A stretch of 64,000 nt of DNA, from assembly GCA_036874045.1 (NCBI GenBank), contig JAZBRI010000009.1, positions 3,410,001 through 3,474,000 of the forward strand. The letters run 5' to 3'. How positions within the stretch are numbered: position 1 is the first letter of the stretch; every line of letters begins with the position of its first letter. A model generated the notes under the pieces. That model was given only the letters and a program-made list of their open reading frames with translations. It did not search any database and was not told the origin of the DNA. A program made the translations under genes and the position numbers. Below are positions 960 to 28,754 of this stretch, in pieces. This DNA is from Cymodocea nodosa. Its lineage: Eukaryota; Streptophyta; Magnoliopsida; Alismatales; Cymodoceaceae.

Positions 960-3900
960 TATAAGCCACTTGGTCCTCAGACTACAAAAATCAAGCACAA
1001 TCTCATTTTTCTACACTTGATCTTGAAGGAAATGAAACTTGGTCTCAATGTGTTTGGTTTAGCCATGAGCCACTAGATTCTTAGCTAGATTAATAATCAA
1101 TTTGTTATCTTCAAAGGACCAGCTATAAACATGCCCAATTATCACAACAAATTTTTGATCCAAAGACCTTAACAAGCACCAGTCGCTACTACTATAAACT
1201 CTACCTCACAAGTAGATAATGCAACAATAGATTGCTTCCTAGACATCCAAGAAAAAGTTGCTCCATACCCAAAAACATATCCAAATGTGCTACATCGATC
1301 ATCAACATCATTGCCCCATTCGCTATTTGTGTAACCAACCAAACCTTTTGAACTACTAGCTCTATAAAAGAGACCAAAATTCTAGGTCCCCTTGACATAT
1401 CACACAATGTGCTTGACAACCTACAAGTTCACCTTTTGAGGATTCTCTATGAACTTGCTTACTAGATCAACCCCATACATTATGTTCGAACAAGTGTATG
1501 TTAGATATCTTAATGTTCCAACCAACTATTTGAAGAAGGTAGGATCAACTGAGGAACCTTCTTCAAATTTGGATAATTTGGTTCCCACTTCAACTAATGT
1601 CTTCCATGGATTTAAGTCTTGCATCTGGAACTTCTCGAGAAAATCTTTCACATAGCTTTCTTGACTAATGAAGATCCCATCTTACCTTTATTTTACTTCC
1701 AAACCAAGGAAATTAGAAAGTTCCCCAAGGTTGGACATTTCAAACTTTTGTATCAAAAGTTGTTTGAAATCAAGAATTAAAGTTCCTTCAGTACCTGTAA
1801 GGACCAAATCATCTACATATAAGCCCACAAAGAGAACTTTGCCATTAACTAATTTCACATGCATAACACTATCTGATATGTACTTCTTAAAATCATTTTC
1901 AATAAAGAAATGATCGATACACTTGTTCCATACACGAGGAGCCTGCTTAAGGCCATATAGGGCCTTCTTTAGCAAAAACATTTTATCTTCATGATTGAGT
2001 TTGATGAAACCTAAAGGTTATTAGATGTAAACTTCCTCCTATAATGAACCATTCAAAAAACCAAATTTTACATTGTTTGTTTTTTCCCAGCACTACACCA
2101 GAAAAACTTAGATTTGTTACTTCTGTTTTACTTAGTTAATTTATCTTTATGCCTATTCTATCTTTTAGAAGTAAACAAACAACCTTTAATACAATTTAGA
2201 TATTAATTCTAATTTGTACTTTAACTGCAAGTGCACAATGTCTATTGTATCAGTGTGCAAGTACAGGTTGATCCCACAGGGAATTGCTGAAAAGTTTAGA
2301 ACTGTCAGTTTTTTAACAATCAAATTTATATATTCAATAAGCTCTCCGTTGAATTACAGTTAACTCAACAAACAAAGTTCATTGAGTTATAACTAACTCA
2401 ACGGACTAACCTTGTGGACTTAAGTTACCTCTATGAGCCTGTCTTTTCTTTTTAATACTGTTATTTACAGAGGAATTCGGCCAACCATTGGGCGATTCCA
2501 CAAATTGTAAATAACATCAATTAAGTTCTTTAATGTTAGTAAACATTGGATTTATCATTAAGCAATACTAACATTTAGATAATTTAACAGTAACCATTAA
2601 AATCTTTAAATCTTTTGAACGAACCAATTTAAGTAAACTGTAAAACTAAAACAAACATAAAACAATCACAACACTAACAAAGATAACATTAATCACGATA
2701 CAACACAAACAATACAACACTCAAATACAACATACAAACATAGATAAATTATTTTTGGTATTTTTGTTTTAATATGAACATGGAAACGGGTGAAAGGTAA
2801 AATGTAAAGTAATCTCACTCGATAGTAAATACTTCCGACACTACTTGCAATGCGATTACACCACTGAAAATTAAACCACTTACAATTCTGTCTCTTCTCC
2901 CTATAGAATCGCGAGTCTAGAATTGCAAGATAATCTTCTCTTTAGCATATAGGCATCAACCCGAAGCCAAGGCTAAAAGCTATACGATCTCTTGAAATAT
3001 GAGTCGACGCTTGGTGAAAATGGCTTCCCTTCCCGCGACGCGATCACTCCTCACAGTGGTTTTTAGGCACTGTGTTTGGCTCGGAATCGACCCGACATCA
3101 AGAAAGTATTCTCAAAGACCTCCAATGGTTGGTGATTATGGTGGATATGGTGGTGGTAACGATGGTTGGTGTGATACTTCAGAGAATCGCCGATACTATC
3201 TATAGAAAACTCGGTGCTCCTCCTCTATATACACTGGTCGTCCATCGATCACACACACACTTTTTTTTCTTCTTTTCTTTTATATTTCTTCAGTAGTAAC
3301 TACTTCTGCTTGAATGATCGGTTGGATTTCCTTCATTCATATCAACGGTGATGATTTCTTCTCCCTGCGCAATACATGCAATCGTGGTTTTTCTTCCAAC
3401 TATCTTGTTTCTACAACCGCTACAGTGTCATATTAGAAAATAAATAGTCCGTGGAGTTACAGATAACTCAACAAACTTTCTTCGTTGATTTAACTATAAA
3501 ACACGTGCAAAAATTTAACTATCCGATGCTCAGGTGCATTTCGGATACTTATAAACTTAACTATCCGATATTTAGATGCATTTCAGATACTTATAGCTAA
3601 CTCACCGATATATAACTTAAGTAAATCTACCAAATCTCGACACATGTCAACAGTAGTTTAATAATAAAATACCCATTTCGGAGAGTTACAAGTCTAACTA
3701 TCCGATGCTTAGATGCATTTCGAATAGTTACAGCTAACTCACCGAAAATCCACTTAAGTCACTTTACCAGAACATGAAATGTGTCCATAGCTATTTTATA
3801 AATAAAAAGAGATTTCGGAGGGTTACACATACAACTGTTCGATGCCTAGTTGCAATTTCGGATAGTTAGAGATAACTCATCGAAAGTTCACTTAAGTCAT

Positions 3901-4560
3901 GCATTATGGTTTCGATATGTGTACTTCTGGAAATAATAAAATATTCTTTCAAAACATAACTATTCGACAATATAAACATAACTATCTGACATATTCGGTA
4001 TGTTAAACATAACTGTCTGAAATATGTTCGGTATGTTAAACATAACTGTCTGAAATATCAGAAAATTCGGATACTTAAGAATTTCATAACCTGTAACTTA
4101 CTGACAGTTCAGAAATGTACTAAATTGACATTAATTCCCCAAAATTAAGTAGATTCTTCAATTAAAGCATATAACAGTGCAATTATAACATAATGACTTA
4201 ATTCTCATATGATAAGCTAAATATTATGCAATTAACCATCATTTAACTGTTAATAATATGCACTTTTTCATTCTAAACATACATCCATGTGAAAGAGTCG
4301 CCAATTGTGTTGTGCAACTAAAATGAAAAGGAGACGAATGGTCTTAATACGAGCAAGAGTGTATACTTCCACGTAATCTCTCCCAAATTCTTATTCATAT
4401 CCTTTCGCCACTAGTCGAGCTTTGTATTTAACAATAGCTCCATCAAGCCCTTTCTTAATCTTGAAGACCCACTTCATATCCAATGCCTTTTATTTGGATG
4501 GAAGTGCAATTAATTCCTATGTGTTGTTTTTCTCTATTGCCATCAACTCCTCCTTCATAG
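960..4560 (-). pseudogene. Copia reverse transcriptase / RNase H region
   Basis: The RT core with the YVDD box lies at 1688-1981 and ALYGLKQAPRVWNK precedes it. RNase H-like words ending before the polypurine tract extend down to about 960. The first part of RT lies beyond the inserted solo LTR, at about 4285-4560, where words like YKARLVAKGY can be read. Fossil coding DNA with multiple breaks. Confidence 0.85.
2074..4279 (-). mobile_element. Solo LTR, Athila-like family (2206 bp)
   Basis: The plus strand begins TGTTTGTTTTTTCCCAGC and ends CATTCTAAACA, so it has TG...CA ends. A perfect 5-bp target duplication TACAT flanks it (2069-2073 and 4280-4284) inside the Copia RT. It is the same family as the LTR at 28755-30945, which abuts a primer-binding site, so the LTR runs on the minus strand. 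A TATATAGAGGA promoter word lies at 3221-3231. The U3 side (about 3440-4085) is packed with dyads of the form TTCGGATAGTTA...TAACTCACCGAA. No internal region, hence a solo LTR left by recombination (inference). Confidence 0.93.
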
Positions 4561-9333: not shown

Positions 9334-9734
9334 AAGATTGTAATTTTAGAAAAGGTAATTAAGTAGCGTACCTTATATTTTTGTACCTTCATTGTTGACT
9401 TTCAACTTTTGCTTCTGATAAATCTTTCATTCCCCAAGTAAAAGTAAAAATATAACAATATAAAAATTAAAAGTAAAACACATAGTTTTATATATACGCA
9501 TTATGTGGAACTCAGTCTCCTACACCTTTGGTGGCTTACAAGCAAGTTAGTTGGTTTCTCAAAACAGATACTAACAAATTGGATTGATGAGAAAAGTTTT
9601 CTTTCAATTTTTATTTTTTTTTGTAAAATTATTAAAACAAAATATAAATGAAAAATAACAATGAGCTATACTAAAAAAAGTTTCTTCATAAATGCCATAA
9701 TAAATGCATCATATAGGAATACAGTTTAAAAACA
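9334..9734. other. Unassigned stretch between LTR debris and F-box-like copy 1
   Basis: AT-rich, no coding pattern. Its right end begins to resemble the DNA just below the second F-box-like copy (the word AACATGATTGAAAAGTAG occurs in both), so part of it is probably the tail of the same duplicated module. Confidence 0.35.
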
Positions 9735-10852
9735 TGATTGAAAAGTAGTGATAAATGAGATAAACGTGTCAATCCATGTAAAACCTTTAGGCATTTCTCA
9801 TCTAACTTATAATTCTACTTCTATGGTATTTGCATGTTTCTTTAACTGATAAACATGTAAAATGTTATCCACACCAAAAATCAAAGTGTTTCATTAATGA
9901 AATTAAAAGTGGATATTGCTCCTTTTTCTGTCCATAAAGATATAGATGCTTCTATTTCCACAAATAATTCAATGTACTCATCTCTCCATTTCCATTCATA
10001 TAGGTCTTCTAGTATCTAGATTTGAAATTTCAAAAGGTCATTCCACCATCGTACCAAACATAAAGTAGGAAAATCAATTTCATCATATCATAATCCCAAT
10101 TGAATTCTATCATAGTCAGTAGATTATGGTTTAGCTATAATTTGAGGTATAGGTAAAATCTCTACTATTTCATCATAACTGTCAATATTTACTATATACA
10201 GATTTGACTTAAATGCAACTAATATATCAAGTACGAGATACATATAATCATCAAGTATTACATGAGTTTTGTTCAATAATGTTCTATCTCCCATATATTC
10301 TATAGTGTTTTCACGTCAAAATTTATCCTTAAAATTGTAAATGTTTAAGCATAACACTTCATCCCAATTTCATGTTAGTCTCCAATAAAATAATTTAGAT
10401 AGTATACTTGAATTTCAATCTACAAATGTTAATGCAACTCTTGAATTTTCAATGGGAACTTCAAAAGTACGAGGTTTCCCAATACTAAATTCCTCTTTAG
10501 TGACAAGATTTCTAATAAAAATATCTAATAAAAGTATATGACATCTTGACTTAATTCTTTAAATTATTAATCCTTCATCATTTCCCATAATAAAATTTAT
10601 TCCTCCTAGTAAATGAGGTAGAATTCTAGTAGTTTCTTCTATATTCAAATATTCATAACTTACTGTACTATGACGAAATAATTTCCATAAGAATCTGTCA
10701 CTTATATTGGTCTTTTTAGAGGCTTATAATCCATGGAAATACCTTTCTATTACAAAATCCTTAATCTACTTTGATATACATCGTAATCTGCACAAATCTT
10801 TGGTTGACAAATAACTTAATACCTCTCTTAATGCATCCAATGGCAAATCCAT
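9735..10852 (-). pseudogene. F-box/FBA-like gene, copy 1 (broken, retroelement-associated)
   Basis: The minus strand from 10852 begins with an F-box: LPLDALREVLSYLSTKDLC, then LRCISK. The rest follows the second copy (13185-14323) block by block, including GLII, TFEVPIEN, KTHVILDDYMYLV, LYIVNIDSYDE, FPTLCLVRWWNDLLKFQI and YEWKWRDEYIELF. The last blocks look like the F-box-associated (FBA) domain of plant F-box proteins. It has about ten breaks and is surely dead. Upstream on the same strand is a gag tail (11090-11470), the same arrangement as copy 2, so gene and gag fragment duplicated together. Treated here as part of a retroelement fossil. Confidence 0.75.
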
Positions 10853-11089
10853 AATTCCCAAACACTGTGATTCAATATTCAATAATATAAAAACAAAAAT
10901 TAATATTAGGAATTAATTTACTCACACAATCATGGGATTAAGTGGTAACTCAACAGACTAAGTTCATTGAGTTAAGTAATAACTCCACGACTCTACGAAC
11001 AATAATAAAAACTATTTTTGTTTTAAAGGTTTCTATTTATTTTGATTTTTTTTAAATATATATATATTAGTTATAATAATTACTTACTT

Positions 11090-11470
11090 CATCCTTCTTC
11101 CCTCCTATAAGAGGTATCGATTTCATTTATATTTCTATTTAAAGGGTTTGGTACTAATTGACTTGGTAATCCTCCTACAAGTCTAATTTCCATTGGTTCT
11201 TTCAATTTAAGTGCATTTCAATTCATATTTTGATTCTAATTTGCAAAATTCTCAAATACTTGATCTAAAGGATTATTCATGCATTGAATTACTTTTTCCA
11301 ATTTATTTATTCTAGTTCATTGTTCTATTAATGCTTCATAATTTTAATTCTTATCATTAATGTTTTCTCCTCCTTGAAAATTGTTATTTTTCTAAGATAA
11401 ATTTGGATGATTTCTCCAATTAGAATTATAAGAATTACCAAAATTATTTCTTAAGTTTCTAGCATGTTGT
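11090..11470 (-). pseudogene. gag C-terminal fragment, copy 1
   Basis: Minus-strand words NNPNWRNHPNLS, NNNFQGGENI and MEIRLVGGLPSQLVPNPLNR match the gag tail of the second module (14520-14890) and the NPxWRNHPNxSW signature of Athila-type gag. It ends at about 11470, where similarity to copy 2 stops. Broken. Confidence 0.7.
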
Positions 11471-11985: not shown

Positions 11986-13143
11986 TGTTTGGATTTTCCC
12001 AGCACTACACCAGAAAAACTTAGATTTGTTACTTCTATTTTTATTTAGTTAATTTATCTTTATGCCTTTTTTTTTTCTTTTAGAAGTAAACAAACAACCT
12101 TTAATACAATTTAGATATTAATTCCAATTTGTACTTTAACTGCAAGTGAACAATGTCTATTGTATCAGTGTGCAAGTACAGGTCGATCCCACAGGGAAAT
12201 GCTTAAGAACTGAAAACTGTTTGTTTGTTAACAATCAAATTTATATATTCAATAAGCTCTCCGTTGAACTACAGTTAACTCAACGGACAAAGTTCGTTGA
12301 GTTATGGCTAACTCAATGGACTAACCTCGTGGACTTAAGTTAACTCCACGAGTCTGTCTTTTCTTTTTAATATTGCTATTTACAGAGGAATTTGGCCAAC
12401 CATTAGGCGATTCCACAGATTGTAAATAACATCAATTAAGCTCTTTAATGTTAGTAAACACAGATTTATCATTAAGCAATACTAACATTCAGATAATTCA
12501 CACAGTAACAAATTGGAGTAACCATTAAAATTTTTAAGTCTCTTGATCGAACCAATTTCAGTAAACTGTAAAACTAAAACTAACATAAAACAATCATAAC
12601 ACTAATAAAGATAACATTAATCACGATACAATACAAACAATACAACACTCAAATACAACATACAAACACAGATAAATTATTTTTGGTATTTTTGTTTTAA
12701 TATGAACATGGAAATGGGTGAAAGGTGAAATGTAAAGTAATCTCAATCGTAAGTGGTTTAATTTTCAGTGGTGTAATCGCGTCGCATGTAGTGACAGAAG
12801 TATTTACTATCGATTGAGATTACTTTGCATTTCACCTTTCGCCCATTTCCATATTCATATTAAAACAAAAATACCAAAAACAATTTATCTATGTTTGTAT
12901 TTTGTATTTGAGTGTTGTATTGTTTGTGTTGTATCGTGATTAATGTTATTTTTATCAGTGTTGTGATTGTTTTATCTTAGTTTTACAGTTTATTGGCATT
13001 GGTTCGATCAAAAGACTTAAAAATTTTAATGGTTACTATTTGAATTATCTGAATGTTAGTATGCTTAATGATAAATCTGTGTTTACTAACATTAAAAAGC
13101 TTAATTGATGTTATTTACAATTTGTGGAATCGCCCAATGGTTG
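11986..13143. mobile_element. Fold-back of two opposed Athila-like LTR pieces
   Basis: 11986-12749 is the U5 side of an LTR in minus orientation, beginning TGTTTGGATTTTCCCAGC. 12750-13143 is an LTR piece in plus orientation. Arms 12397-12749 and 12811-13143 are reverse complements apart from small differences (about 20 bp extra in the left arm), with a 61-bp centre (12750-12810). No target duplication is seen. It could form by a break-induced inversion or by insertion of one LTR into another followed by deletion. Confidence 0.85.
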
Positions 13144-13184
13144 ACGTAGAATACACACAACATTAAACACACAAAATTACAGCT

Positions 13185-14323
13185 TAAGAACATGATTGAA
13201 AAGTAGGAACAAATGGAATAAATGTATCAGTCCAAGAAAACTTTTTAAGCATAATTCTTCTTGCTATTAATTCTGTTTTCATGCAGTTCTTGTTTCTTCT
13301 TAATTTGTAAACGTGTACTATATTATAAATTCCAAATACAAGTGTATTACCATTAATGATATGAAATGTATAAAGGGATCCTTTTTGGTTCCAGGGTAAT
13401 GTAGCAGTTTCTATTTCTACATCAATTTCAATATACTCCTATTCCCACTTCCATTCATTTATGTCTTCCATAATCCATATTTGAAATTTCATCAGTTCAT
13501 CCCACCATCGTAACAGACATAAAGTAGGATCATCTTCTTCATTATACCACATTCCTATTTGAATTTTATTAAATTCTGCAGATGGCAGTTTAGCTATATC
13601 ACTCGGTATAGGTAAAATTTCTATATATTCATCATAACTGTCTATGCTCACTATGTATAAATCAGATTCAAATGCAATTGAAATATCTGTGACAAGATAT
13701 ATATATCCATCAAGTATGACATGTGTTTGCTTAATTAATGATTTCTGTCCTAGATATATCATAATATTTTCATTCCAAGATCTATTCAGAAAATTATACA
13801 TACTTAAGCGTAAATCTTCACCCCAATTTCCTGTAGGTCTCCAATGATATAATTTTTCAGGAATTGCAGAATTTTTATCAAAAAATATTAAAGCTAACCC
13901 ACAATTTACAGTTGGTATTTCAAATCTATTAGGTCTTCCTATATTCCATTCTTCTCCTATTATAGGATTTCTTATCAAAATATTAGGTAATAATAAACTT
14001 GTATACCTTGGTCTCGTCTTGTATATGATTAATCCTTCATCTATCCCCATAATATGATTTATTCCTTCTAATGCATTGGGTGGAATTCCAGTAGTTTCTT
14101 TCATAGCCAGATATTCATGAGTATTTGAACTACGATTAAATGACCTCCATATGAATCCATCTCTAATCATAGTCAATTTTGCAGCTTGTAGTCCTTGAAA
14201 ATATTTTTCTTCAATACAGTTTTTAATTTCCTTTAATACACAACACAGCTTGCACAAATCTTTGGCTGACAAGTTACTCAGTACTTCCCTTAGTGCATCC
14301 AACAGTAATTGCATCAATTCCAT
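13185..14323 (-). pseudogene. F-box/FBA-like gene, copy 2 (nearly whole, retroelement-associated)
   Basis: An open frame runs from 14323 to 13439 (294 codons). Similarity to copy 1 continues to about 13185, so it looks almost whole, with about one break. Residues 7-32 resemble an F-box (LLLDALREVLSNLSAKDLC); F-box proteins bind SKP1 in SCF ubiquitin ligases. The middle and end (HVILDGYIYLVTDI, LYIVSIDSYDEYIEI, LCLLRWWDELMKFQIWIME) resemble the FBA domain of plant F-box proteins. No intron is evident. It lies about 200 bp downstream of a gag tail on the same strand, as copy 1 does, so it was probably a host gene picked up by the retroelement. Function is not known; an endogenous domesticated protein is possible but unproven. 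Confidence 0.72.
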
Positions 14324-14379
14324 TTGTTGATTCTGTATAACACAAACAAAAATTTAGCAGAGACAAAAATTAACATAAC

Positions 14380-14470
14380 TACTGCACACCCTCGTGGAGT
14401 TAATGAATAACTCAACGGACTAAGTTCGTTGAGTTAAGGACTAACTCTACGATACTATTAACTAAAAATA
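14380..14470. repeat. Dyad motifs between gag and F-box-like copy 2
   Basis: The words GTGGAGTTAATGAATAACTC, AACTCAACGGACTA and CGTTGAGTTAAGGACTAACTC occur here. They are the same GAGTTA...TAACTC motif found in the LTRs and inter-ORF spacers. The equivalent place in copy 1 (about 10930-11000) has them too. Confidence 0.7.
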
Positions 14471-14519
14471 AAAACATATATACATACAGATAGTTGCTTC
14501 AGATATGCTGCTTCATTCA

Positions 14520-15698
14520 GCTATCCTCCCAAAAGAGGTATCAATTTCATTGAACGTTCTATTGACAGGATTAGGTATAGCTTGTATTGGCAATCCTCTA
14601 GTAGGTCTACCTTCCATTGGTTCCTTCTGTCTAAGTGGTATATTTATATTCTGATTTTGAATTGTAGCACTTCCAAATACAAAATCTAGACGATTGTTTA
14701 ATTGTTAGATTATCTTTTCTAATTTCTCTATTCTAGATCATTGTTCTAGTGATGCTTCATAACCTATATTCTTCTCATTCATATTTTCTCCTCCCTGGAA
14801 ATTGTTGTTTCTCCAAGATAAATTCGGGTGATTTCTCTAATTAGGATTATAAGAATTTCCTAAGTTATCTCTCTGGTTCCTAGCATAAATAATATCTAAA
14901 TCATTTATGTTTGCATTCTTTTCTACTAGCTTTTGATTTAATGATAACTCTTCTATTTTCTTTGTTAATTCATTTAATTTCACCTCAATCATAGTATTTG
15001 AATCTATTTCATGCATTCCTTGTGGTAATATTTTTTTATTTGCAATAGCTTCAACCGAATTTTCCCACTATGTAGTTCTTTGCAAAGTTTTTTAAATATG
15101 CCCATGCTTCTTCACTACATAACTTTAAAAATCCATTTTGACAAGTAGATTGTAATAAAGATTTCGTTGAAACATCTATGCCTTTATAAATTATACCTAT
15201 TAATTGTGCTTTACTCATTGCATGATGTGGACATTGAGTCAGTAAATCTTTAAATCTTTCAAAATATTTCCAAAATGATTCACCCTGTTTTTGGCTACAC
15301 ATTAATATTTCTTTCTTCTTTTTAATCATTTGATGTGTTGGATAATATTTTTCTAGAAAAACAAAGCAAAATTCAGTCCATGTAGAAATTGAATCAGGCA
15401 ATAGAGTATATAACCATCTCTTAGCTGTGTCTTTTAAAGAAAAAGGGATATATCTAAGTTTAATAGCATCTATACTCATGTTCGGCATTTTCATCATTTG
15501 ACAAACTTCATTAAATTCTCTAAGGAAATAATAGGCATCCTCTCTTTCTAATCCATGAAAATGTGGCAATTGACAAATATAATTAGATTTCAGTTCAAAT
15601 CTATCTCCCTCAAAGTTTAGCAATCGAATACATGAAAGTTCATCAACTAATTCCGGATACAGAATTTCTCCTAATGGTTTTTCTACTGGAACAGCCAT
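14520..15698 (-). pseudogene. Athila-like gag
   Basis: 15051-15698 is open (215 codons) and contains the plant Retrotrans_gag domain: LRYIPFSLKDTAKRWLYTLL, TWTEFCFVFLEKYYP, SFWKYFERFKDLLTQCPHH. The tail from 15050 to 14520 carries ILPQGMHEID, NPN-RNHPNLSWRNNNFQGG and GLPIQAIPNPVNRTFNEID. No CCHC knuckle was seen in this gag. It lies downstream of the third-ORF homologue (16920-18980) rather than upstream of pol. A second gag in the plus-strand element (from 32576) has the same relation. A few breaks. Confidence 0.85.
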
Positions 15699-15887
15699 CT
15701 CTACGTTCTCTTTTAAAGAAAGGTTAGCTACACCCCAAAGAATTTCGTTAAAGTTCAGTTTAGAAAATTTTTCAGTACTCTTCTACAATGAAAATTCCTG
15801 GGTAGGTGTTCTTACTAATCGCTTAGTGCTTAGAGAACGAGTCCATGTGCTCATAAATAAATAGTAGAAGATTAATTACATACCAGT

Positions 15888-16115
15888 CTAAAACTTTCCA
15901 TTCAGTAAATATTCATTGTCGGATGAAGTTGAATCAGTTGCTTCTCCTTCCAGTTCCTCCAACGCATTCTCCTTTCTTTTAAAAGTGCTGGTATCTCGTA
16001 AATAACATTCTGATTTATATATATAATGTACATCTATAAAGTGAATAAATCTCATTGCAAGAACGTGTCTTGCAACATGCATCGTGGTTCCTGTTTTTAT
16101 GGGTACGTGTACCAC
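15888..16115 (-). pseudogene. Small conserved reading frame in the ORF3-gag spacer
   Basis: 75 codons; visible words are MHVARHVLAMRFIHFID, TSTFKRKENALEELEGEA and DSTSSDNEYLLNGKF. The last two recur in the plus-strand element at about 32290-32388, so this spacer segment is shared by both elements. No known domain. It may be a leader or the N-terminal extension of gag. Confidence 0.4.
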
Positions 16116-16919: not shown

Positions 16920-18980
16920 ACAAAATTTCTATATTCTTTCACTGAAATGGTTCTTCATCTGATCCTTTTTTATGTCCATTTCGTGAAATTAATACAATCC
17001 ACCATCAGCAATGGAATGAAATCTCCATAAAATAATTTTTTCTTTACTGCTTTCAGCTTGGAGATAAAAACTACAAACCAATTTATTTGAATTCTATTTA
17101 CAACTGCATACGTGGCCCATTTGACAAATTGACTTAGTTCTATGTCATGGCCCTGTCGTTGATAAACATTTTTAATCAGAATGTTAGCTACCATGTGTGC
17201 CTTACCACTTAAATGCTTCAATCTGTTTAATAAAGGTACACCAGGATTGATAGCTAGACAATCTTTGATTTCTAGCTCAATCCACTTGTTAGTAGTTGTA
17301 TCTTCCAAAATTTTTATTCCTTCATTCTTTAATCCAAAAATGTTGTGGAGAAGCTCTGGTGTTATCTGTACATCAGCTTCCTCCACGTTTGAAATTAATC
17401 CTCCTTCTCTTTCTCTTAAATTTGCATAGAAACAGGGTACTAAATTTTCATATGCTGCATGCCCTCTCTCTTGAGAAATGAATTGCAGTAGACCTTGGAA
17501 TTCAAATAAATCTTTGATTTCTTGCATTCCATCCCAATTTACTAGTCTACTGTAAATAATATCGTAACCACTTATTTCTTGATATTTGGTATAAGCTTCT
17601 TGATTACAAAAATGTACTTCATTCAAAATTGTTGTTTCAGTCGGGTCAGGAAGGTGACTTTGTTGTTTTAGAGAGGTTTGTTATTGCTCTTCCTCTTCTA
17701 TAGGCTGCATTTGAACATTCTCTACAGATTCCTGCATTTTTACTTTTTCTTCTGTCTGTGGTGGTGAGCCGGCAACTCTCCACTCTATCTTGAATTCTTT
17801 CCATATATTGTTGAAGAGTTTCTTGCTCTTCAGTGGAATCTGTGAAATTATTTTTGTCCAAATGGCTTCCTTCATTCTCTTCATTTTCTACTCTTTCTTC
17901 TTCCTCCTGACTACCAATCTATTCTGTTACTGTTCTTTCTGATTCTGTAACAGATTGGGATGGAGTCACAGGCAATTCAGTTTCTGCCCTAATTTCTGTT
18001 TCTTCTTGTATAGGTTGCAAACTAATTTCAGCCTGATTTTCTTCTTTTCTTTGCTCCTGCTCCTCCTCAGAATCGAATAGCAGGTTGATAAAAATTTGCT
18101 CCACAAGCCTTGTAAAAATTGGTACTTTAGATTTAATTTCCTCATTTTCAGGCATTTTTTCTTTCCCTTTCTTTTTTCTGATTAGTTGTGCCTGTTCTTC
18201 CTCTTCATCTTCTGAAATTAAATCTACAAAAGTTGGCTCTGTAAGCCCTCGAGCCATAGGTACTGGCTCTTCCTATTTAACTTTTTCTATAATTACTGGT
18301 CTCGAAGGACCAACTTCATCTCCTTCTACAGCAGGTTTGGCAGTAGTTGCTGCTTGATACTGTTCAACTTTTATTTTGTGTTGGGCCCTTATCATTTCTT
18401 CGACCCTTTTTCTCTTAATGGCATCATATATAATATGTGCCTTAGCTGTAGCTATTTCTTGAGTATCACCTTGGTCTCTTGCTGTTTTGACCAAGCTAGT
18501 AAATTCTTTCTCTTCTTCTTTAGTTCTCGGCCAAACAAATGCTAATCGTGGTAAAGGTTTTGTTGGCTGAACTGGAGGTCTTGACTGTTGTTCCTCAGGA
18601 ACAGGTCTTTCAACAGTCGATTCTTCTAGTTCTCTTGCTCGTTGCTGCTCCCATATTGCCCAGCTTCCTCGACCAACAATGCATTTCTTAAACCACAATC
18701 TAGCTTTACGTTGAATTAGCTCTAGGGCTACTTCATTGTTTGGCTGGATTTTTCTTTCTTTGCTAACTACAATTTCAGTTGCCACTCTAATTTGTGTCTC
18801 CATTATCTGTGGTATTTGTATTTCTAACTCAACTAAAACTTTCCTCAAGTTAAAGAGTTCTGATTCTACCTTTTGTAGTGCTTTCTCTCTTGTTGTATTC
18901 TAGATCTTTTGTCGCGTGTGCCATTCTTCAGATTCCTTCAAAAACTGTGCGGTGTCCACTACATCTTCCTAGAATTCAGG
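16920..18980 (-). pseudogene. Athila-type third ORF (putative plant transposon protein domain)
   Basis: The C-terminal part, 16970-17626 (218 codons open), matches the plant retrotransposon ORF domain often called 'putative plant transposon protein' in Athila-like elements. Landmarks: GYDIIYSRLVNWDGM, LVPCFYANLRE, ITPELLHNIFGLKNEG, GKAHMVANILIKNVYQRQGH. Upstream pieces (17646-18848) are rich in Glu, Gln, Pro and Lys and low in complexity, as is usual for the N-terminal half. Its place after integrase fits the third ORF, sometimes compared to an envelope position. A handful of breaks. The domain repeats in the plus-strand element at 30946. Confidence 0.85.
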
Positions 18981-19178
18981 CGTCATTTTCCTCATTGTAG
19001 AGTTACACAACAGTACAGAATCGCTTTGATTTCTACTGTTCTAGATTCTAAATGATTTGCCGGATAATGCCCCTAAAACCCTAGGTTTTAGATAAATAAG
19101 TCCTAAGTTTAGGCGGGTAATCGAGTCATTTCCTGAACTAACTATTACTATTTTATCCACAATCTTAGCTACAGTACT

Positions 19179-19269
19179 CCGTTGAGTTATAGTTAACTCA
19201 ACGGAATAAGCTCGTTGACTAACTCAAGACTCAACGAAGTAAGCTCGTTGAGTTAAGCGTAACTCAACG
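19179..19269. repeat. Dyads in the integrase-ORF3 spacer
   Basis: Dyad 19179-19204 has arms CCGTTGAGTTA and TAACTCAACGG around TAGT. Dyad 19246-19269 has arms CGTTGAGTTA and TAACTCAACG around AGCG. Arms are conserved while the 4-nt centre differs from the CAGA seen at 16207. Confidence 0.88.
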
Positions 19270-19539
19270 GACCCTCGTACAAACAAATATAATAATAAAA
19301 ATACTACAGATAATAGTTTTTCTGATTAACTCTTTTTTTTTCTCTTGGTTTAACCGATACTATGTTTCAGTTAGACCTAATTTTTTTCAAAAATTAATAT
19401 ACATATTTTTTTTATGTTCCGGTCATACCAATGGATCCGGTTGGTTGAACCGTAACGATTTTTATATTTTATATATATATTTTTTATGTTTTTTTTTTAT
19501 ATATAAACATAAAAACTGATTTCTAACTAAGTAAAGCTC

Positions 19540-20700
19540 GAGTAATCCTCTACTCTGACTTCTTCTATAATTCAAAAGGAGTTTTTTCGTGTTTTCAGAA
19601 TAGGTCTAAGTCTTTGTCCATTTACTTTAAATATATTCTAATTTTTAGGATTTTCAATTTCAATAGCTCCATAAGGATAAATATTTTGAACTATGTAAGG
19701 TCCTCCCCATCTAGATCTTAATTTTCCTGGATGGTTATGGAGTCTAGCCATATAAAGATATATTTCTTGTTCTATTTCAAAGCTTTTTGGAATAATTTTT
19801 CTATCATGCTAGAATTTAATTTTCTCTTTTTCTCTTACAGTCTTCGAATAAGCTTCATTTCTAAATTCTTCTAATTCAATTAGTTGCATTTTTCTATTTT
19901 TAGCAGCTTGATTTAAATTAGTATTCAGAGTTTTTAATGCCCAATAAGCTTTATGTTCAATTTCAACAGGTAAATGACAAGTTTTTCCATATACTAGGCT
20001 AAAAGGTGACATACCTAAACTTCTTTTATACGCAGTTTTATAAGCCCAAAGTGCATCTATCAATCTATTAGCTCAATCTGTTCTAGTAGGATTTACTACT
20101 TTTTCTAAGATTAACTTAATTTGTTTGTTTGCACTTTCTACTTGTCCGCTTGTTTGCGGATGATATGATGTTGCAATTTTGTGGTTTACTTCATATTTCT
20201 TCATTAAGGCTTCAAAACTTCTATTACAGAAATGAGTTCCTCTGATAATAGCTTTAGGTATTCCAAATGTGGAAAATATATTTGTTCTTATAAATTGTAT
20301 TACCACTTTGTTATCATTAGTTTTTGTAGGAATAACTTCTATCCATTTAGATACATAATCCACCCCCAACAATATGTAATTAAATTGATTAGACATAGGA
20401 AATGGACCCATAAAATCTATTCCCCACACATCAAAGATTTCAACCTTAACAATAGGATTAAGAGGCATCATATTCCTCTTTGATATTCTTCCTATTTGTT
20501 GACATCTTAAACAACTTAAGCAATATTTATGAGCATCTTTGAATAGTGTTGGCCAATAAAACCCACATTGTAGAATTTTTGCAGTAATTTTTCCTGAACC
20601 AAAATGCCCTCCACAAGCTTGGTCATGATAGAAATACAATATGCTCGGATATTCAGTTTCTGGAATACACCTCCTTAAAACCAGATCAGGACATTTCTTA
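19540..20700 (-). pseudogene. Gypsy integrase region (with C-terminal part)
   Basis: Zinc-binding start (HDQACGGHFGSGKTA-type word at 20600, then CLSCLRCQQIG), core (FDVWGIDFMGPFP, YVSKWIEVIPT, SYHPQTSGQVESANKQIK) and the plant tail ([40 protein letters not shown]). Downstream words near 19560-19800 continue the C-terminal region. Broken. Confidence 0.88.
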
Positions 20701-20759
20701 AATAAGTATGGGTCTTCCCAATAGTAATATTTTACTCTTGAGAAAAATAATTTCTTAAC

Positions 20760-22200
20760 CTATCTATTCCAATCCTTAGGTGTTAAACTAGTAACTAAGT
20801 AATTAACTATGTCTATATACCAAGGCATTGTGTTGATGGTCATTAATTGTTCATCAGGAAAATTATCTTTAATTTCAATATTTGATTTTTCTATCTGTAA
20901 CCTTAATAAATGATCTACTACTACATTCTCACAAACTTTTTTATTTTTAATTTCTAGATCAAATTCTTGTAATAATAATATCCATCAGATCAATCTAGGT
21001 TTAGTCTCTTTTTTCTTTATTAGATGTTTTAAAGCTGAATGATCCGTGTATACTATCACTTTAGCTACAATCAGATATGATCTAAACTTTTCTAAGGCAA
21101 ACAAAATAGCTAATAATTCTTTTTCTATAGTTGTGTAATTAACTTGAGCATCATTTAAGGTTTTGCTTGCATAATGAATCACTCTAGGAGATTTTTCTAT
21201 TTTCTATCCTAACACTGCTCCTACAGCAAAATCAGAAGCATCACACATTAATTCAAATGGATGGTTCCAATCAGGTGCTTGAATTATAGGAGTTGAAATT
21301 AAGCTAGTCTTAAGTTTGAAAAATTCTTCCTTGTAATTTTTATCAAAGTTAAATGGGACATCTTTTAATAGATTAGTTAAAGGTCTAGCTATCTTGCTAA
21401 AGTCTTTAATGAATCTTCTATAAAAACCAGCATGCCCTAGAAATGATCTAATATCTTTTACTGATTTAGGTTCTAGTAGATTAGAAATTACTTCTATTTT
21501 AGCTTTATCTACTTCCAACCCTTTCTTAGAAACAACATGCCCTAAGACTATTCCTTGTTTAACCATGAAGTGACATTTTTCCCAATTTAAAACCAGATTT
21601 TTTTCCACACAGCGTTTTAATATTTGGTCTAAATTGCTTAAACAAACTTCATATGAGTTGCCATATACAGTAAAATCATCCATAAATATTTCTAAGAAAT
21701 CTTCAGTCATTCTAGTAAATATGCCCTACATACACCTTTGAAAGGTAGCTGATGCATTGCATAATCCGAATGGCATTCTCTTAAAAGCATAAGTTCCATT
21801 AGGACAGGTGAACGTTGTTTTCTCTTGATCCTCTAATGCTACTGGAATTTGATTATAACCTGAATACCCATCTAGGAAACAAAAATATTCTTGCCTTGCT
21901 AATCTTTCCAGCATTTAATCTATAAAAAGTAAGGGAAAATGATCTTTCCTAGTCACAGCATTCAACTTTCTATAGTCTATAAATACTCTCCAGCCTGATT
22001 GAATTCTAGTAGGGATCAAGTCTTGACTTTCATTCCTAATAACTGTTAATCCTGATTTCTTAGGAACTACATGGATTCGGCTAACCCACGAGCTATCAGA
22101 AATCAGATAAATTATGTCATTATCTAACCATTTCACTATTTCTTTCTTGACTACTTCTTTAAGGTTTGGATTTAATCTCCTCTCAGGTATTCTAACAGGT
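20760..22200 (-). pseudogene. Gypsy reverse transcriptase and RNase H region
   Basis: RT words are VFIDYRKLNAVTRKDHFP (about 21930-21990), FCFLDGYSGYNQIPVA, FAFKRMPFGLCNA-type word, and EIFMDDFTVYG (active-site box). Then FLGHAGFYRRFIKDFSKIA and the RNase H words CDASDFAVGAVLG and [21 protein letters not shown]. Typical Ty3/gypsy order and spacing. Broken into several frames. Confidence 0.9.
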
Positions 22201-23960
22201 TTAGCATTCTCTTCTAAATATATGTGGTGACAGCATAAAGTTGAACTTAATCCTTTTATATCAGTCATAGTCCATCCTGTTGCTTCTTTATAACTTTTTA
22301 CTACATCTTTTAATTTAACTATTTGATCCTGTTTTAAATCTGAAGCAATAATGATTAGACAGGTTCGTTTATCTTCCAGAAATATATAGGTTAATTCAGG
22401 AGGTAAAGGTTTTAATTCTAAATGTTGCCCATCAGAAACTAGAGCTCCTAATTGAACATCATCATTTTCTAAATTAATTTCTTCTAGATCTCCTTCTATA
22501 TTTATGCTTTCACTTTCCTCTAAAGTTTTAGAATTGATTTGCCTATTTAATTCTTCTTGAATCACATCATTTAACATATCTCCTTCATCCTCTAAAAATT
22601 CTATGGTATGTAAGGACATTTCTAACTCCTCAAACATTTCTGGTTTGTAAATATTTAATTGAGTATCATCATTACCAAATGCTAGCTTCATTACTCCAGT
22701 TTTACAATTTATAACAACCCCTGATGTTGCTAAAAATGGCCTTCCCAAAATTAAAGATGTATCACTATTTTTATGCTTAATTTGTTGGGAATCCAAAATT
22801 ACAATATCAATAGGACATATAAAGTTTTTGATTTTAATTAGGACATCCTCTATTTTTCCTCTAGGGTATCTTATACTTCTATTAACTAATTGAATAACCG
22901 TACTAGTAGGAGTTAAGCCTTCTAATCCTAAGGATGCCAATATATCACTTGGCATAACATTTATACCTACACCTAAGTCTATTAAGGTTCTTTCTAAAAT
23001 GGTATTTCCTATAGTGCATGATATAACAGGGATTCCAGGATCAGATAACTTTTTAGGAATTTGTGGCAAAAATAGGGAACTACTTTGCTCAGCTAAAAAG
23101 ACATTTCTAAGAACTTTTCGCTCTCTTTTCTTAGTACACCAACCTTCAAAAATTTAGCACAAGGTGGCATTTTCTGCAATAGATCTAACAAATGAATGTT
23201 AACTTGTACTTTTTCGAAAATTTCTCTGATTTTTTCTTATTTTTCAGGTATTGTTTGTTGTAATCTTTCAGGATAGGGTGCTAAAGATTTTGATTTCAAA
23301 GATTCTTTTTCTTTCAATTGATTTGTTTGATCATTTTTAGCTTCATTAGCAAATTCAGATTGTTCTTCAATGATTTCTAGATTTTCAGCTATTACATTTT
23401 CCTTATCATTTTGATTTTTACTCTTATCCACCTTCATATCATTTTCATTTTGAGTTCTTGGTGGTATATCAGTTCCAGATCTTAATGTTACACATACATC
23501 TTCTAGATTTTCATTACTCTTATGATGTCTTTGCATATCATTTCTGTAATTATGATCTTCAATTGTTTTTAGTTTTAAAGTACATTCTTTAAATTCTCTT
23601 GCATTAATATTTTCTTTTGGCTGTGTATTTTGCAAATTATGTAGGTTTATAATATTATAATTTTCATTGTCCTGTTGCATAACTTGTATTTTCATTGTAT
23701 ATTGGTCTAATGCTTTTAGTTTTCTTTCTAGAACATCTAATTTCATTGCACTCAATTTTTGATCAATTTTCATTATGGTTTTTTCAGTTTCGTAAATTAT
23801 ATCCTTTTTAGGTTCTGAATATGCTTCCTTATAATTTAATTGGTTGACTTCTTGTTGCTGACACATAAAGTATTCCAGTTTGTCAAGGTTTTGCTCTATA
23901 CTACGCTCCAGTCTGTCATACCTATCCCAAACTTCCGTGTCTCTCAACATATTACACATT
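22200..23960 (-). pseudogene. Gypsy gag tail and protease, duplicate copy B
   Basis: The protease part near 22690-23069 shows ERTLIDLGVGINVMPSDI and LILGRPFLATSGVVINCKTG. Upstream, 23237-23959 encodes the gag-protease linker with EDVCVTLRSG, the usual 'VTLRSG' word of Athila/Tat gag-pol. The segment 21562-23972 is a direct tandem repeat of copy A. Confidence 0.85.
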
Positions 23961-23988
23961 TTATGCTGACCATCAATAAAATCAGATT

Positions 23989-26900
23989 TTTAACCATGAA
24001 GTGACATTTTTTTCAATTTAAAATCAGATTTTTTTCCACACAGCATTCTAATATTTGGTCTAAATTGCTTAAACACACTTCATATGAGTTTCCATATACA
24101 GTAAAATCATCCATAAATATTTCTAAAAAATCTTCAGTCATTCTAGTAAATATGCCCTACACACATCTTTGAAAGGTAGCTTGCGCATTGCATAATTCGA
24201 ATGGCATTCTTTTAAAAGCATAAGTTCCATTAGTACAGGTGAAAGTTGTTTTCTCTTGATCCTCTAATGCTATTGGAATTTAATTATACCCTGAATACCC
24301 ATCTAGGAAACAAAAATATTCTTGCCCTGCTAATCTTTCCAGCATTTGATCTATAAAAGGTAAGGGAAAATGATCTTTCCTAATCACAGCATTCAACTTT
24401 CTATAGTCTATACATACTATCCAACCTGATTGAATTCTAGTAGGTATCAAGTCTTGACTTTCATTCTTAATAACTGTTAATCCTGATTTCTTGGGAACTA
24501 CATGGATTGGACTAACCCATGAGCTATTAGAAACCGGATAAATTATATCATTATCTAACCATTTAACTATTTCATTCCTGACTACTTCTTTAAGGTTTGG
24601 ATTTAATCTCCTCTCAGGAATTCTAACAGGTTTAGCATTCTCTTCTAAATATATGTGGTGACAGCATAAAGTTGAACTTAACCCTTTTATATCAGTCATA
24701 GTCCATCATATTGCTTCTTTATAACTTTTTACTACATCTTTTAATTTAGTTATTTGATCCTCTTTTAAATTTGAAGCAATAATGATTGGACAGGTTCGTT
24801 TATCTTCCAGAAATATATAGGTTAATTCAGGAGGTAAAGGTTTTAATTCTAAATGCTACCCATCAGAAGCTAGAGCTCCTAATTGAACATCATCATTTTC
24901 TAAATTAATTTCTTCCCGATCTCCTTCTATATTTATGCTTTCACTTCCTTCTAAAGTTTCAGAATTGATTTGCCTATTTAATTCTTCTTGAATCACATCA
25001 TCTAACATATCTCCTTCATCCTTTAAAAAGTCTATGGTATGTAAGGACATTTCTAACTCCTCAAACCTTTCTAGTTTGAAAATATTTAATTGAGTATCCT
25101 CATTACCATATGCTAGCTTCATTACTCAAGTTTTACAATTTATAACAGCCCTTGATGTTGCTAAAAATGGCCTTCCCAAAATTAAAGATGTATCACTATT
25201 TTTTTGCTTAATTTGTTGGGAATCCAAAATTACAATATCAATAGGATATATAAAATTTTTGATTTTAATTAAGACATCCTCTATTTTTCCTCTAGGGTAT
25301 CTTATACTTCTATCAACTAATTGAATGACTGTACTAGTAGGAGTTAAGCCTTCTAATCCTAAGGATGCAAATATATCACTTGGCATAACATTTGTACCTG
25401 CACCTAGGTCTATTAATGTTCTTTCTAAATGGTATTTCCTATGGTGCATGATATAACAGGGATTCCAGGATCAGATAACTTTTTAGGAATTTGTGGTAGA
25501 AATAGAGAACTACTTTGCTCAGCTAAAAAGACATTTCTAAGAACTTTTCGCTCTCTTTTCTTAGTACGCCAATCCTTAAGAAATTTAGCACAATGTGTCA
25601 TTTTCTGCAATAGATCTAACAAAGGAATGTTAACTTGTACTTTTTCAAAAATTTCTCTGATTTTTTCTTATTTTTCAGGAATTGTTTGTTGTAATCTTTC
25701 AGGATAGGGTGCTAAAGATTTTGATTTCAAAGACTCTTCTTCTTTTAGTTGATTTGTTTGATCATTTTTAGCTTCATTCGTAGATTAAGATTGTTCTTTA
25801 ATGATTTCTAGATTTTCAGCTATTACATTTCCATTATCATTTTGCTTTTTACCCTTATCCACCTTCATATCATTTTCATTTTGAGTTCTTTGTGGTATAT
25901 CAGTTCCAGATCTTAATGTTACACATACATCTTCTAGATTTTCGTTACTTTCATGATGCTTTTGCATATCATTTTTGTGATTATGATCTTTGTTTAGAAT
26001 GAAAAAGTGCATATTATTAACGGTTAAATGATGGTTAATTGCATAATAGTTAGCTTATCATATAAGAATTAAGCCATTATGTTTTAATTGCACTATTATA
26101 TGCTTTAATTGAAGAATTTGCTTAATTTGAGGGAATTAATGTTAATTTAGTACATTTATGAACTGTCGGTAAGTTGCAGGTTGTGAAATTCTTAACTATC
26201 CGAATATTCTGATATTTCGGATAGTTATGTTTAGCATACCGACAAATTTGAACAGTTATATTTAACAGACCGAATATGTATCGGATAGTTATGTTTAAAT
26301 TGCCGAACAGTTATGTTTTGAGAGAATATTTTATTATTTCCTAAAGTACATGTGTCGAAACCTTAATGAATGGCTTAAGTGAACTTTCGGTGAGTTATCT
26401 ATAACTATCCGAAATTACAGCTGGGCATCAGATAGTTAGACCTATAACTCTCCGAAATATCATTTTATGATTAAACTGCTGCTGACACGTGTTGAGATCT
26501 AGTAGATTTACTTAAGTTATATATCGGTGAGTTAGTTGTAACTATCCGAAATGCATCTGAGCATCAGATAGTTAAGTTTGTATGTATCTGAAATGCATCT
26601 AAGAATCGGATAGTTAAATTTATGCACGTGTTTTATAGTTAAATCAACGAAGAAAGTCTGTTGAGTTATCTGTAACTCCACGGACTATATATTTTCTAAT
26701 ATGCCACTATAGCGATTGCAAGAACAGACAGTTGAAAGAGAAAAACCACGTTTGCACGTATCGTGCAGGGAAAGAAATCATCAACGTTAATAAGAATGAA
26801 GGAAATCCAACCGACCATTCAAGCAGAAGCAGTTACTATTGAAGAAATATAAAAGAAAAGAAGAAAAAAAGAGAAGTGTGTGATCGATGGGCGGACAGTG

Positions 26901-28443
26901 TATGTAGAGGAGGATTAGCGACACAATTCTCTGAAGTACCACACCAACCATCATCATCACCACCATAATCACCAACTATCGGAGGTCTGTGAGGATACTT
27001 GCCTGATGTCTGGTCGATTTCGAGCCAAACACAGTGCCTAACAACCATTGTGAGGGGTGATCGCGTCGTGGGAAGGGAAGCCATTTTCACCAAGCGCCGA
27101 CTCATATTTCAGGAGATCGTAAAGCTTTTAGCCTTGGCTTCGGGTTGATGCCTGTATGCTGAAGAGGAGATTATCTTGCAATTCTGGACTTGCGATTCTA
27201 TAGGGAGAGGAGACAGAATTGTAAGTGATTTAATTTTCAGTGGTATAATCACGTTGCAAGTAGTGTCAGAAGTATTTACTGTCAAGTGAGATTACTTTAC
27301 ATTTCACCTATCGCCCATTGCCATGTTCATATTAAAACAAAAATACCAAAAACAATTTATCTATGTTTGTATGTTGTATTTGAGTGTTGTATTGTTTGTG
27401 TTGTATCGTGATTAATGTTATCTATGTCAGTGTTGTGATTGTTTTATGTTTACTTTAGTTTTACAGTTTACTGAAATTGGTTCGTTCAAAAGACTTAAAG
27501 ATTTTAATGGTTACTGTTTGAATTATCTGAATGTTAGTATTGCTCAATGATAAATCCAATGTTAACTAACATTAAAGAGCTTAATTGATGTTATTTACAA
27601 TCTGTGGAATCGCCCAATGGTTGGCTGAATTCCTCTCTAAATAGCAGTATTAAAAAGAAAAGTCAGGCTCGTGGAGTTAACTTAAGTCCACGAGGTTAGT
27701 CCGTTGAGTTAGCCATAACTCAATAAACTTAGTCCGTTGAGTTAGCTGTAATTCAATAGAGAGCTTATTGAATATATAAATTTGATTTTTAACAAACGAA
27801 TAGTTCTCAAGTTCGTCAGCAATTCCCTATGGGATCGACCTGTACTTGCACACTGATACAATAGACATTGTGCACTTGCAGTTAAAGTACAAATTGGAAT
27901 TAATATCTAAATTGTATTAAAGGTTGTTTGTTTACTTCTAAAAGAGAGAATATGCATAAAGATAAATTAACTAAGTAAAATCAGAAGTAGCAAATCCAAG
28001 TTTTTCTAATGTAGTGCTGGGAAAACCCAAATAATCTTCAATTGTTTTTAGTTTTAAAGTGCATTCTTTAAATTCTCTTGCATTAGTATTTTCTGTTTGC
28101 TATATATTTTGCAAATTATGCAAGTTTATAATATTATAATTTTCACTGTCTTGTTGCATAACTTGTATTTTCATTGCATTTCCGTCCAATGCTTTTAATT
28201 TTGTTTCCTAATCATCTAATTCCATTGCATTCACTTGTTGATCATCTTTCTTTATGGTTTTTTCAGTTTCGTAAATTATATCCTTTTTAGGTTCTGAATA
28301 TGCCTCCTTATAGTTTAATTGGTTGACTTCTTATTGTTGACACACAAAGTATTCTAGTTTGTCCAGATTTTGCTCTATACTATGCTCCAGTCTGTCATAC
28401 CTATCCCAAACTTCAATGTCTCTCATCATATTACACATTCTAT
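23989..28443 (-). repeat. Tandem duplicate copy A (gag tail, protease, RT start)
   Basis: Apart from the solo LTR at 25991-28033 and its target duplication, this is about 2.4 kb that matches 21562-23972 nearly throughout. It carries the same landmarks (WDRYDRLEHSIEQNLDKLEY, EDVCVTLRSG, TLIDLGAGTNVMPSDIFASL, YRKLNAVIRKDHFP). The copy junction lies at 23973-23988. The solo LTR is in copy A only, so it most likely came in after the duplication. Several breaks in each copy. Confidence 0.88.
25991..28033 (+). mobile_element. Solo LTR, Athila-like family, plus orientation (2043 bp)
   Basis: Begins TGTTTAGAATGAAAAAGTGC and ends CTGGGAAAACCCAAATA, with target duplication ATCTT at 25986-25990 and 28034-28038. 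It is the reverse orientation of the surrounding element. The U3 dyad array lies at about 26160-26700. Same family as 2074-4279 and 28755-30945. Confidence 0.92.
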
Positions 28444-28729
28444 ACTGACCATCAGTTAGGTAAACTATAGGATTCTCATATTCGGCTCTATTATATTGAG
28501 GATAATTCATTTGTTGTTCGTGGGATCTAACCATCTATAAACGTCTCAATTTCAAATAGTTAGAAATGTCGTGTCCTTTAGAATTGCAGAATTCACATAT
28601 GCTAATTACAGGTTTCAGAAATCTTTGAGCATAAGCATATGCCATATTCTCAATTACAGAAGAAAACACACAACTCTGGCTATTAAAACGAAACAGCTCT
28701 AACAGTTGCTTATATCAATTCAATTCAAT
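28331..28729 (-). pseudogene. gag remnant just inside the primer site
   Basis: Minus-strand words YAYAQRFLKPV and ICEFCNSKGHDISN (a CCHC-type knuckle) are followed by MVRSHEQQMNYPQYNRAEYE. The large Retrotrans_gag domain expected between primer site and knuckle is absent here. It is instead found separately at 15051-15698. Confidence 0.6.
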
Positions 28730-28747
28730 TCCCCAGCAACGGCGCCA
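28730..28747 (-). other. Primer-binding site complementary to tRNA-Asp
   Basis: The minus strand reads TGGCGCCGTTGCTGGGGA, which pairs with the 3' end of plant tRNA-Asp (TCCCCGGCAACGGCGCCA) with one mismatch. It lies 7 nt inside the LTR end at 28755. tRNA-Asp priming is typical of Athila-type elements. It fixes the strand and the 5' end of the large element. Confidence 0.9.
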
Positions 28748-28754
28748 TAAAACT

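Follow-up and report, generated by a model that had tools for sequence, protein, structure and literature searches.

Results

An F-box gene is resident in an LTR retrotransposon of Cymodocea nodosa

We analysed a 64,000-nucleotide stretch of the Cymodocea nodosa genome (contig JAZBRI010000009.1, positions 3,410,001 to 3,474,000; hereafter the window), in which an F-box gene with an FBA-like tail lies downstream of a capsid gag gene on the same strand. Judged by its sequence, the F-box gene belongs to a high-copy, Athila-like Ty3/gypsy retrotransposon bounded by long terminal repeats (LTRs), and the genomic copies of this element indicate that gag is enclosed in an intron whose removal gives access to the F-box open reading frame (ORF). 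We consider it likely that this family carries an accessory F-box gene, that splicing sets a choice between gag and F-box expression, and that the product would use a host SCF ubiquitin ligase for the benefit of the element.

In the window, the coding part of the second F-box exon occupies 14323-13184 on the minus strand, as delimited by profiles and relatives. Intact relatives have a frame of 380 codons including the stop, and the window copy carries a premature TAG at codon 295 (13439-13441) ahead of the normal TAA (13184-13186). The capsid gag gene (PF03732) occupies 14521-15698, also on the minus strand; its ORF is open from 15698 to 15051 (74.4 bits, E 9e-21, cut-off 24.1), is interrupted by a stop at codon 216 and continues in frame to ~14521, which leaves ~200 bp to the F-box ATG at 14323. 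Upstream of the gag ORF, shortly past the splice donor, lies an in-frame methionine (MSTWTRSL...). The window also holds a decayed F-box gene (9735-10855, minus strand) that derives from an earlier subfamily of this element and was recognised by DNA and amino acid homology, along with its homologous gag tail (11090-11470, minus strand). The decayed and main copies are 69% identical in DNA (9720-11465 against 13178-14886) and 54% identical in amino acids. These positions agree with a preliminary description of the window, which had reported both copies and the spacing between F-box gene and gag.

A translated search of the 375-Mb genome with the F-box protein returned at least 133 matches including the window's own (6352 candidates at first look), and the other 132 among the matches listed show 87-92% amino acid identity, nearly all spanning the full 294-residue query. 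The 30-nt splice-donor context described below occurs at 2402 sites in the genome, compared with 0 for the control. From these matches we assembled 25 distinct main-family loci, comprising 18 F-box loci of 10 kb (among 20 fetched stretches), seven of 3.9 kb, one of which overlaps a fetched locus, and the window. Because the loci were picked from the best-scoring matches and open F-box frames were favoured, the proportion of open copies (12/25) is biased upward. Long homology on both flanks of the F-box gene is common to all 25. In 21 of them, a gag sequence is located no more than 2 kb upstream of the F-box gene, the remaining four being exactly those that lack the intron, and gag also adjoins the F-box gene in all four fetched loci of an intermediate subfamily and in five of eight loci of the decayed copy's subfamily (window included). 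The other three of these eight have no gag match, and their F-box start is likewise unmatched.

The copy that we refer to as C12 could be read from LTR to LTR. It consists of a 5' LTR (2.18 kb), a primer-binding site (PBS) with the sequence TGGCACCGTTGCTGGGGA, a linker, reverse transcriptase, RNase H, integrase, a region of PF20167-like ORFs, the F-box gene, ~1.7 kb of further sequence, a purine tract and the 3' LTR. Its LTRs begin with TG and end with CA, the PBS lies 7 nt past the LTR, and the insertion is flanked by the target duplication AAAAC (C12 being the only long copy checked for this feature). The profiles RVT_1, RT_RNaseH, Integrase_H2C2 and rve match in that order; a protease profile was found in copy C7 only, below cut-off. 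The primer site reads TGGCGCCGTTGCCGGGGA in C7, with variants in C12, the window and, in decayed form, C3; we take it to correspond to the end of tRNA-Asp. Kimura two-parameter distances between paired LTRs are 0.055 for C12, 0.069 for C7 and 0.061 for C3 (the latter two over ~1.4 kb of the 3' LTR), which at two rates that we assume would presumably represent roughly 2-5 million years. Copy C3 lacks ~0.77 kb of the reverse transcriptase region.

The preliminary description had proposed a search for further gag and F-box units and for flanking LTRs; such units were recovered, and LTRs, a PBS, a purine tract and a 5-bp target duplication are present. Its suggestion that the two genes travel as a unit is borne out by the loci across the genome, and its picture of a gene riding with an element is correct in that an LTR retrotransposon carries the gene; the unit, however, is the whole retrotransposon with pol rather than gag and F-box alone.

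The capsid gene lies within an intron

The same 1.55-kb, gag-bearing stretch is absent exactly from four of the 25 loci, namely copies C8, C19, C12 and C6. In C12 (locus L013), its borders are ...AGACTG before GTATGTAATT ... TACAG and AATC... after it. In the window, the stretch corresponds to a GT-AG intron of 1551 nt on the minus strand (14333-15883), which runs from GTATGTAATT to GTTATACAG and encloses gag; the borders are exact GT and AG, the donor is GTATGT and the acceptor is T-rich. Splicing joins the start of exon 1, ATGGAAAGTTTTAGACTG (15884-15901, minus strand), which encodes MESFRL, in frame to the F-box ORF. The gene had been described as intronless, which holds for the coding part after the ATG and fails for the element RNA, with its intron at 15883-14333 around gag.

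Among the first 40 classes of pairwise gaps between 70 and 3000 bp, the intron is the sole deletion that recurs across loci; the other shared gaps in these classes are extra stretches in a single locus (L016, L021 or L028). The 29-nt exon-exon junction, with up to 3 mismatches, occurs at 194 sites in the genome, and a control occurs at 0. On a tree of the F-box gene and the sequence 3' of it, starting 15 nt ahead of the ATG, the four intron-less copies require four changes, at least three of which are forced by well-supported branches. Because exact intron loss needs at least three independent changes on the tree, we conclude from the sequences that spliced RNA of the element has repeatedly been reverse-transcribed and returned to the genome. 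Two of the spliced copies have 5' ends that were read (C12 and C8), and both align continuously through the LTR, the PBS region and pol; therefore, the spliced molecules were otherwise genome-length.

In the unspliced RNA, the ATG of exon 1 opens a 9-codon upstream ORF, MESFRLVCN*, just ahead of gag. This upstream ORF is present in five of eight copies viewed (window included), has one residue altered in two and is unmatched in one. In the spliced form, the same ATG opens the F-box protein, which begins MESFRLNRQMELM...; in copy C8, this ATG is mutated. Splicing would accordingly select between capsid and F-box protein, a choice that we read from the sequence and distinguish from its use in the plant. 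A sense ORF located after integrase is reached by splicing, as judged from genomic copies rather than RNA. Through the location of gag within an intron and the 194 junctions, the genome preserves a record of how a plant retroelement is alternatively spliced.

The element encodes a predicted F-box/FBA protein

The F-box profile PF00646 scores 41.4 bits in locus L025, 28.5 in L013 and 28.3 in L019, and it exceeds the cut-off of 20.5 bits in five of the seven scanned copies in which the start region is wholly or partly retained (L013, L019, L025, L044 and L045). The remaining two fall below it, with 19.8 bits in the window copy, slightly under the cut-off, and 15.0 in L042. For the FBA tail, TIGR01640 (F_box_assoc_1) is over its cut-off in three of four intermediate copies (L042, L043 and L044, and not L045) and in L041, a distant relative described below. 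PF07734 is over its cut-off in L043 only, and FBA_1 reaches 14.5 bits in the window copy against a cut-off of 21.1. The profiles return F-box/FBA rather than an env-like product, and we conclude that the predicted protein of the element is an F-box/FBA protein. A search of PDB yielded no relative of it at E <= 1.

The first F-box stop is at codon 311 in L012, L014, L020, L027 and L028, one of which is spliced. Shared positions were also observed for the first gag stop, which falls at codon 25 in L016, L019 and L024, at codon 138 in L008, L014, L018, L020 and L023, and at codon 143 in L012, L015 and L026. The common gag stops could reflect either gag-defective lineages mobilised in trans or mutation hot spots.

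The F-box gene is old in the element and has been under purifying selection

The selection test suggested for the copies in the preliminary description was informative between subfamilies. Between the decayed window copy and six main-family copies (the window's included), ~29-31% of first, 22-24% of second and 37-39% of third codon positions differ. Nei-Gojobori ratios of nonsynonymous to synonymous divergence (dN/dS) between four loci of the old subfamily and five main-family copies are 0.31-0.41 at dS 0.74-0.93, despite decay after insertion. As a frame control, two pairs gave 0.35 and 0.36 in the true frame, compared with 0.67-0.69 and 1.22-1.32 in the other forward frames and 0.56-1.37 in the antisense frames. 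We conclude from these comparisons that the F-box ORF has been under purifying selection between subfamilies.

For gag, dN/dS in its own frame is 0.24-0.28, and the proportion of synonymous differences is 0.46, compared with 0.49-0.50 for the F-box gene (two pairs). Because synonymous divergence is alike, the F-box gene has resided in the element for approximately as long as gag; it is old there rather than recently captured.

The capsid gene follows pol, and a second lineage shows the reverse gene order

A tblastn search (E <= 1e-3) detected no capsid in the 5' part of any of the four copies examined (C12, C7, C3 and C8). In C12, C7 and C3, an ORF begins no more than a few hundred bases past the LTR and PBS, near a CCHC-like knuckle. 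The knuckle reads CEFCNSEGHDISDC in C3 and has one cysteine changed to tyrosine in C7; the open frame of C12 begins past the knuckle. In the copies read, capsid gag occurs solely after pol, adjoining the F-box gene. According to the available portion of PMC1142308, gag and pol share one ORF in Athila, Calypso and Diaspora. Because the capsid is not in one ORF ahead of pol, we describe the element as Athila-like and stop short of assigning it to Athila. Annotation assumes that gag comes first, and a capsid gene behind pol is at odds with this order.

The genome's best FBA match, L041, has 34-43% identity to the F-box protein of the element, split over two frames by a frameshift. Upstream of it is what we take to be the integrase C-terminal motif, right before the F-box is a T-rich, acceptor-like stretch (TTTTATTTTCAG), and downstream is a capsid gag; the 1.5 kb farther upstream contained no pol match. 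A second locus of this kind shows the same order, such that gag adjoins the F-box gene in both loci examined of this integrase-F-box-gag lineage, reversed relative to the main family. With L041 as query, at least 148 matches were returned, of which 9 at seven loci, L041 among them, belong to its own kind and the other 139 have 33-38% identity. We conclude from these arrangements that two lineages have kept the F-box gene and gag side by side downstream of integrase sequence, with the order of the two genes reversed between them.

A proposed function for the F-box protein and competing explanations

Accounts of how LTR retrotransposons survive plant silencing mostly take the perspective of the host. 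An F-box gene that is kept by an element under purifying selection between subfamilies, and that has a relative in a second lineage, represents a testable candidate for a weapon or regulator. We propose that genome-length RNA would be used in two forms, with the unspliced form specifying the upstream ORF and capsid gag, and the spliced form specifying the F-box/FBA protein starting MESFRL. Once translated, this protein may dock on host SKP1 through its F-box, and the resulting SCF ubiquitin ligase would remove whichever protein is bound by the FBA tail, to the benefit of the element. The likeliest targets would be a host silencing factor, as with viral P0 and AGO1, or, given the splicing switch, the element's own Gag. 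In the available parts of the respective reports, polerovirus P0 suppresses silencing, carries an F-box-like motif and acts on AGO1, which is also the target of the Arabidopsis F-box protein FBW2. By analogy, a more specific version is that the spliced RNA of this clade yields a counterpart of P0 that recruits SCF against a factor of RNA silencing or RNA-directed DNA methylation, with the unspliced RNA yielding capsid and the move of that gene behind pol having enabled the switch; we offer this version tentatively and regard it as rather unlikely.

Several observations weigh against our overall proposal. In a genome-length spliced RNA, over 8 kb would separate the F-box AUG from the 5' end, and the leader splice or internal initiation that would be needed to reach it was not found. 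TIGR01640 is significant in all four main-family copies (E 2e-7 to 5e-6) yet remains under the curated cut-off, and an AlphaFold model made from five near-identical copies was unusable (pLDDT 36). Premature F-box stops are present in 13 of the 25 loci, the window copy among them, and the gag frame is stopped in 17 of 17 copies examined. Within the main family, shared variants show a weak excess at third codon positions (p = 0.063 against singletons, 0.097 against 1:2), and gag in the same test gives p = 0.9 and 0.57.

The F-box protein might instead control the abundance or turnover of the capsid that the element itself encodes, in which case splicing would act as the switch and the protein would have no role against silencing. 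This alternative draws on Gag and F-box being alternative products of a single splice choice and having diverged to a similar extent. However, gag follows the F-box gene in the second lineage instead of lying in a preceding intron, and any interaction between Gag and the F-box protein is hypothetical. We judge capsid control to be possible, if doubtful.

It is improbable, in our estimation, that the F-box ORF is a functionless passenger that was captured once and conserved by inheritance from a recent master element. The weak codon-position signal within the main family and the premature stops in 13 of 25 copies would fit a passenger. They are countered by the low dN/dS between subfamilies, which persists despite decay after insertion, by the higher ratios in the other forward (0.67-1.32) and antisense frames, and by the presence of the gene in two lineages of differing gene order.

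Another alternative, in which the 1.55-kb gag segment was inserted into an element originally carrying only the F-box gene and the apparently spliced copies represent the older empty state, would by itself generate an identical pattern of presence and absence. We rejected this candidate as very improbable on its exact splice borders with GTATGT donor and T-rich acceptor, on the scatter of copies without the segment over the tree, where at least three changes are forced, and on the presence of gag upstream in older subfamilies (5/8 and 4/4 loci). Finally, a host F-box family that expands alone, with gag beside it by chance or through segmental duplication, has next to no probability: F-box/FBA genes form large, fast-evolving plant families and the frameshifted, less similar L041 exists, but very many dispersed copies lie inside the same LTR-bounded element, gag is beside the F-box gene in 21 of 21 unspliced loci, and L041 itself lies between integrase and gag sequence. 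The additional gag and F-box units with LTRs, PBS and target duplication refute chance pairing and host expansion, and their number rules out a single segmental duplication of a host F-box locus, which the preliminary description had named as the outcome that would undo it.

Searches for a host progenitor and relation to known elements

We searched for the origin of the gene inside and outside this genome. A protein database search yielded no homologue outside this genome at E <= 0.001 among 347 candidates, which is weak evidence in that plants seem thinly covered there; for a host gene of the window, the same database gave 39 matches, one with a plant name. An FBA profile search of the genome gave at least 145 matches (150 of 1636 candidates scored), 38 of them over cut-off. 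We fetched five of the 145, four of them over cut-off, and all five are element copies; no host progenitor was found among these five, and the other 140 may include host genes. The matches listed for the L041 query likewise contain no host progenitor, and a host gene could be crowded out there by element copies. Because all five fetched matches are element-borne, counts of F-box genes in such genomes may be inflated by element copies.

Full-text literature searches, whose coverage excludes most subscription papers, yielded, among the papers listed, no report of an F-box gene in an LTR element, and on this basis we consider the finding novel; with the same coverage, no report was found of a capsid after pol or of intron-less element copies. 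Within the portions available, F-box is not named in a review of extra ORFs of plant LTR elements (PMC7264820), in a survey of extra domains in LTR elements across 121 angiosperm genomes (PMC9289625; the figure is outside the portion covered) or in a 2025 Retand study (PMC11963269), and a full-text term count likewise gives no occurrence of 'F-box' for the three. Mentions of F-box in the available part of PMC13359793 concern host self-incompatibility genes, and PMC3852528, likewise available in part, describes a sunflower repeat library in which 10 sequences contain an F-box motif, interpreted by its authors as a redundant gene family.

Among known systems, the element resembles Athila, Calypso and Diaspora in its long TG...CA LTRs, its order of reverse transcriptase, RNase H and integrase, and its gag core, and some members of that lineage also have a gene in the env position. 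It differs from them in that capsid follows pol (absent 5' in 4/4) and an F-box gene is present. As in the element, Calypso and Diaspora have a tRNA-Asp-type PBS a few bases past the LTR, according to the available part of PMC1142308. Env-like sense ORFs (aORF-3S), such as that of barley Bagy2, are similar in that an additional sense ORF follows pol, precedes the 3' LTR and is reached through splicing (PMC7264820, in part); here, the product is F-box/FBA rather than env-like, and the capsid gene is inside the intron. A cellular-type regulatory enzyme is also fixed in a Gypsy lineage of Phalaenopsis, whose elements carry an AlkB m6A demethylase (PMC9289625, in part), which is a different protein from a different pathway. 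Polerovirus P0 and other plant-virus F-box proteins, as far as the accessible accounts describe them, are further cases of a mobile or infectious element that encodes an F-box protein; P0 has an F-box-like motif, and we liken the two by description rather than by sequence comparison.

Other features of the window

The remainder of the main copy extends over the minus strand and was identified by homology to other element copies. Its 5' LTR (28754-30945) is ~2.2 kb with TG...CA ends, and the internal 5' start (28031-28753) comprises the PBS TGGCGCCGTTGCTGGGGA and a leader, without a capsid region. A solo LTR on the plus strand (25991-28033), with the 5-bp target duplication ATCTT, is inserted in the element. 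It is followed by a second copy of part of pol (23989-25990), which is a tandem duplication of 21558-23559 with 94% identity, and by pol itself (19129-23975), in which reverse transcriptase, RNase H and integrase are matched and protease is assigned by homology. Between integrase and gag, ORFs at 16970-18803 have weak, below-cut-off similarity to PF20167 (Transposase_32) and are part of the element, within the homologous region 18885-15884. A remnant of the 3' LTR (12745-13143) is joined to the end of the F-box gene by a deletion seen in this copy alone; at 12517-12985, two LTR pieces of opposite orientation meet at 12745, with arms 93% alike, which represents a rearranged 3' LTR.

A second, fragmentary main-family copy lies on the plus strand (30946-36506), with its gag start at 32576 and no F-box match; its gag is broken by a solo LTR (32808-34957, target duplication AGATG). 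Together with the one at 25991-28033 and another at 2073-4279 (TACAT), this brings the solo LTRs of the family to three, each flanked by a 5-bp target duplication. Outside the window, copy C3 (L032, ~1828-3190 of the reverse complement) is preceded by a gag-pol stretch that we take to be copia-like, in which a CCHC knuckle is followed by CDACQLGKLHKTSF; it is apparently another element beside or around C3. Outside the retroelement cluster, the window contains a pair of direct repeats (45832-46963 and 49175-50259, 76-78%) and an ORF with a PAM2 motif (42193-42681; PF07145, E 1e-7), which is probably the start of a host gene.

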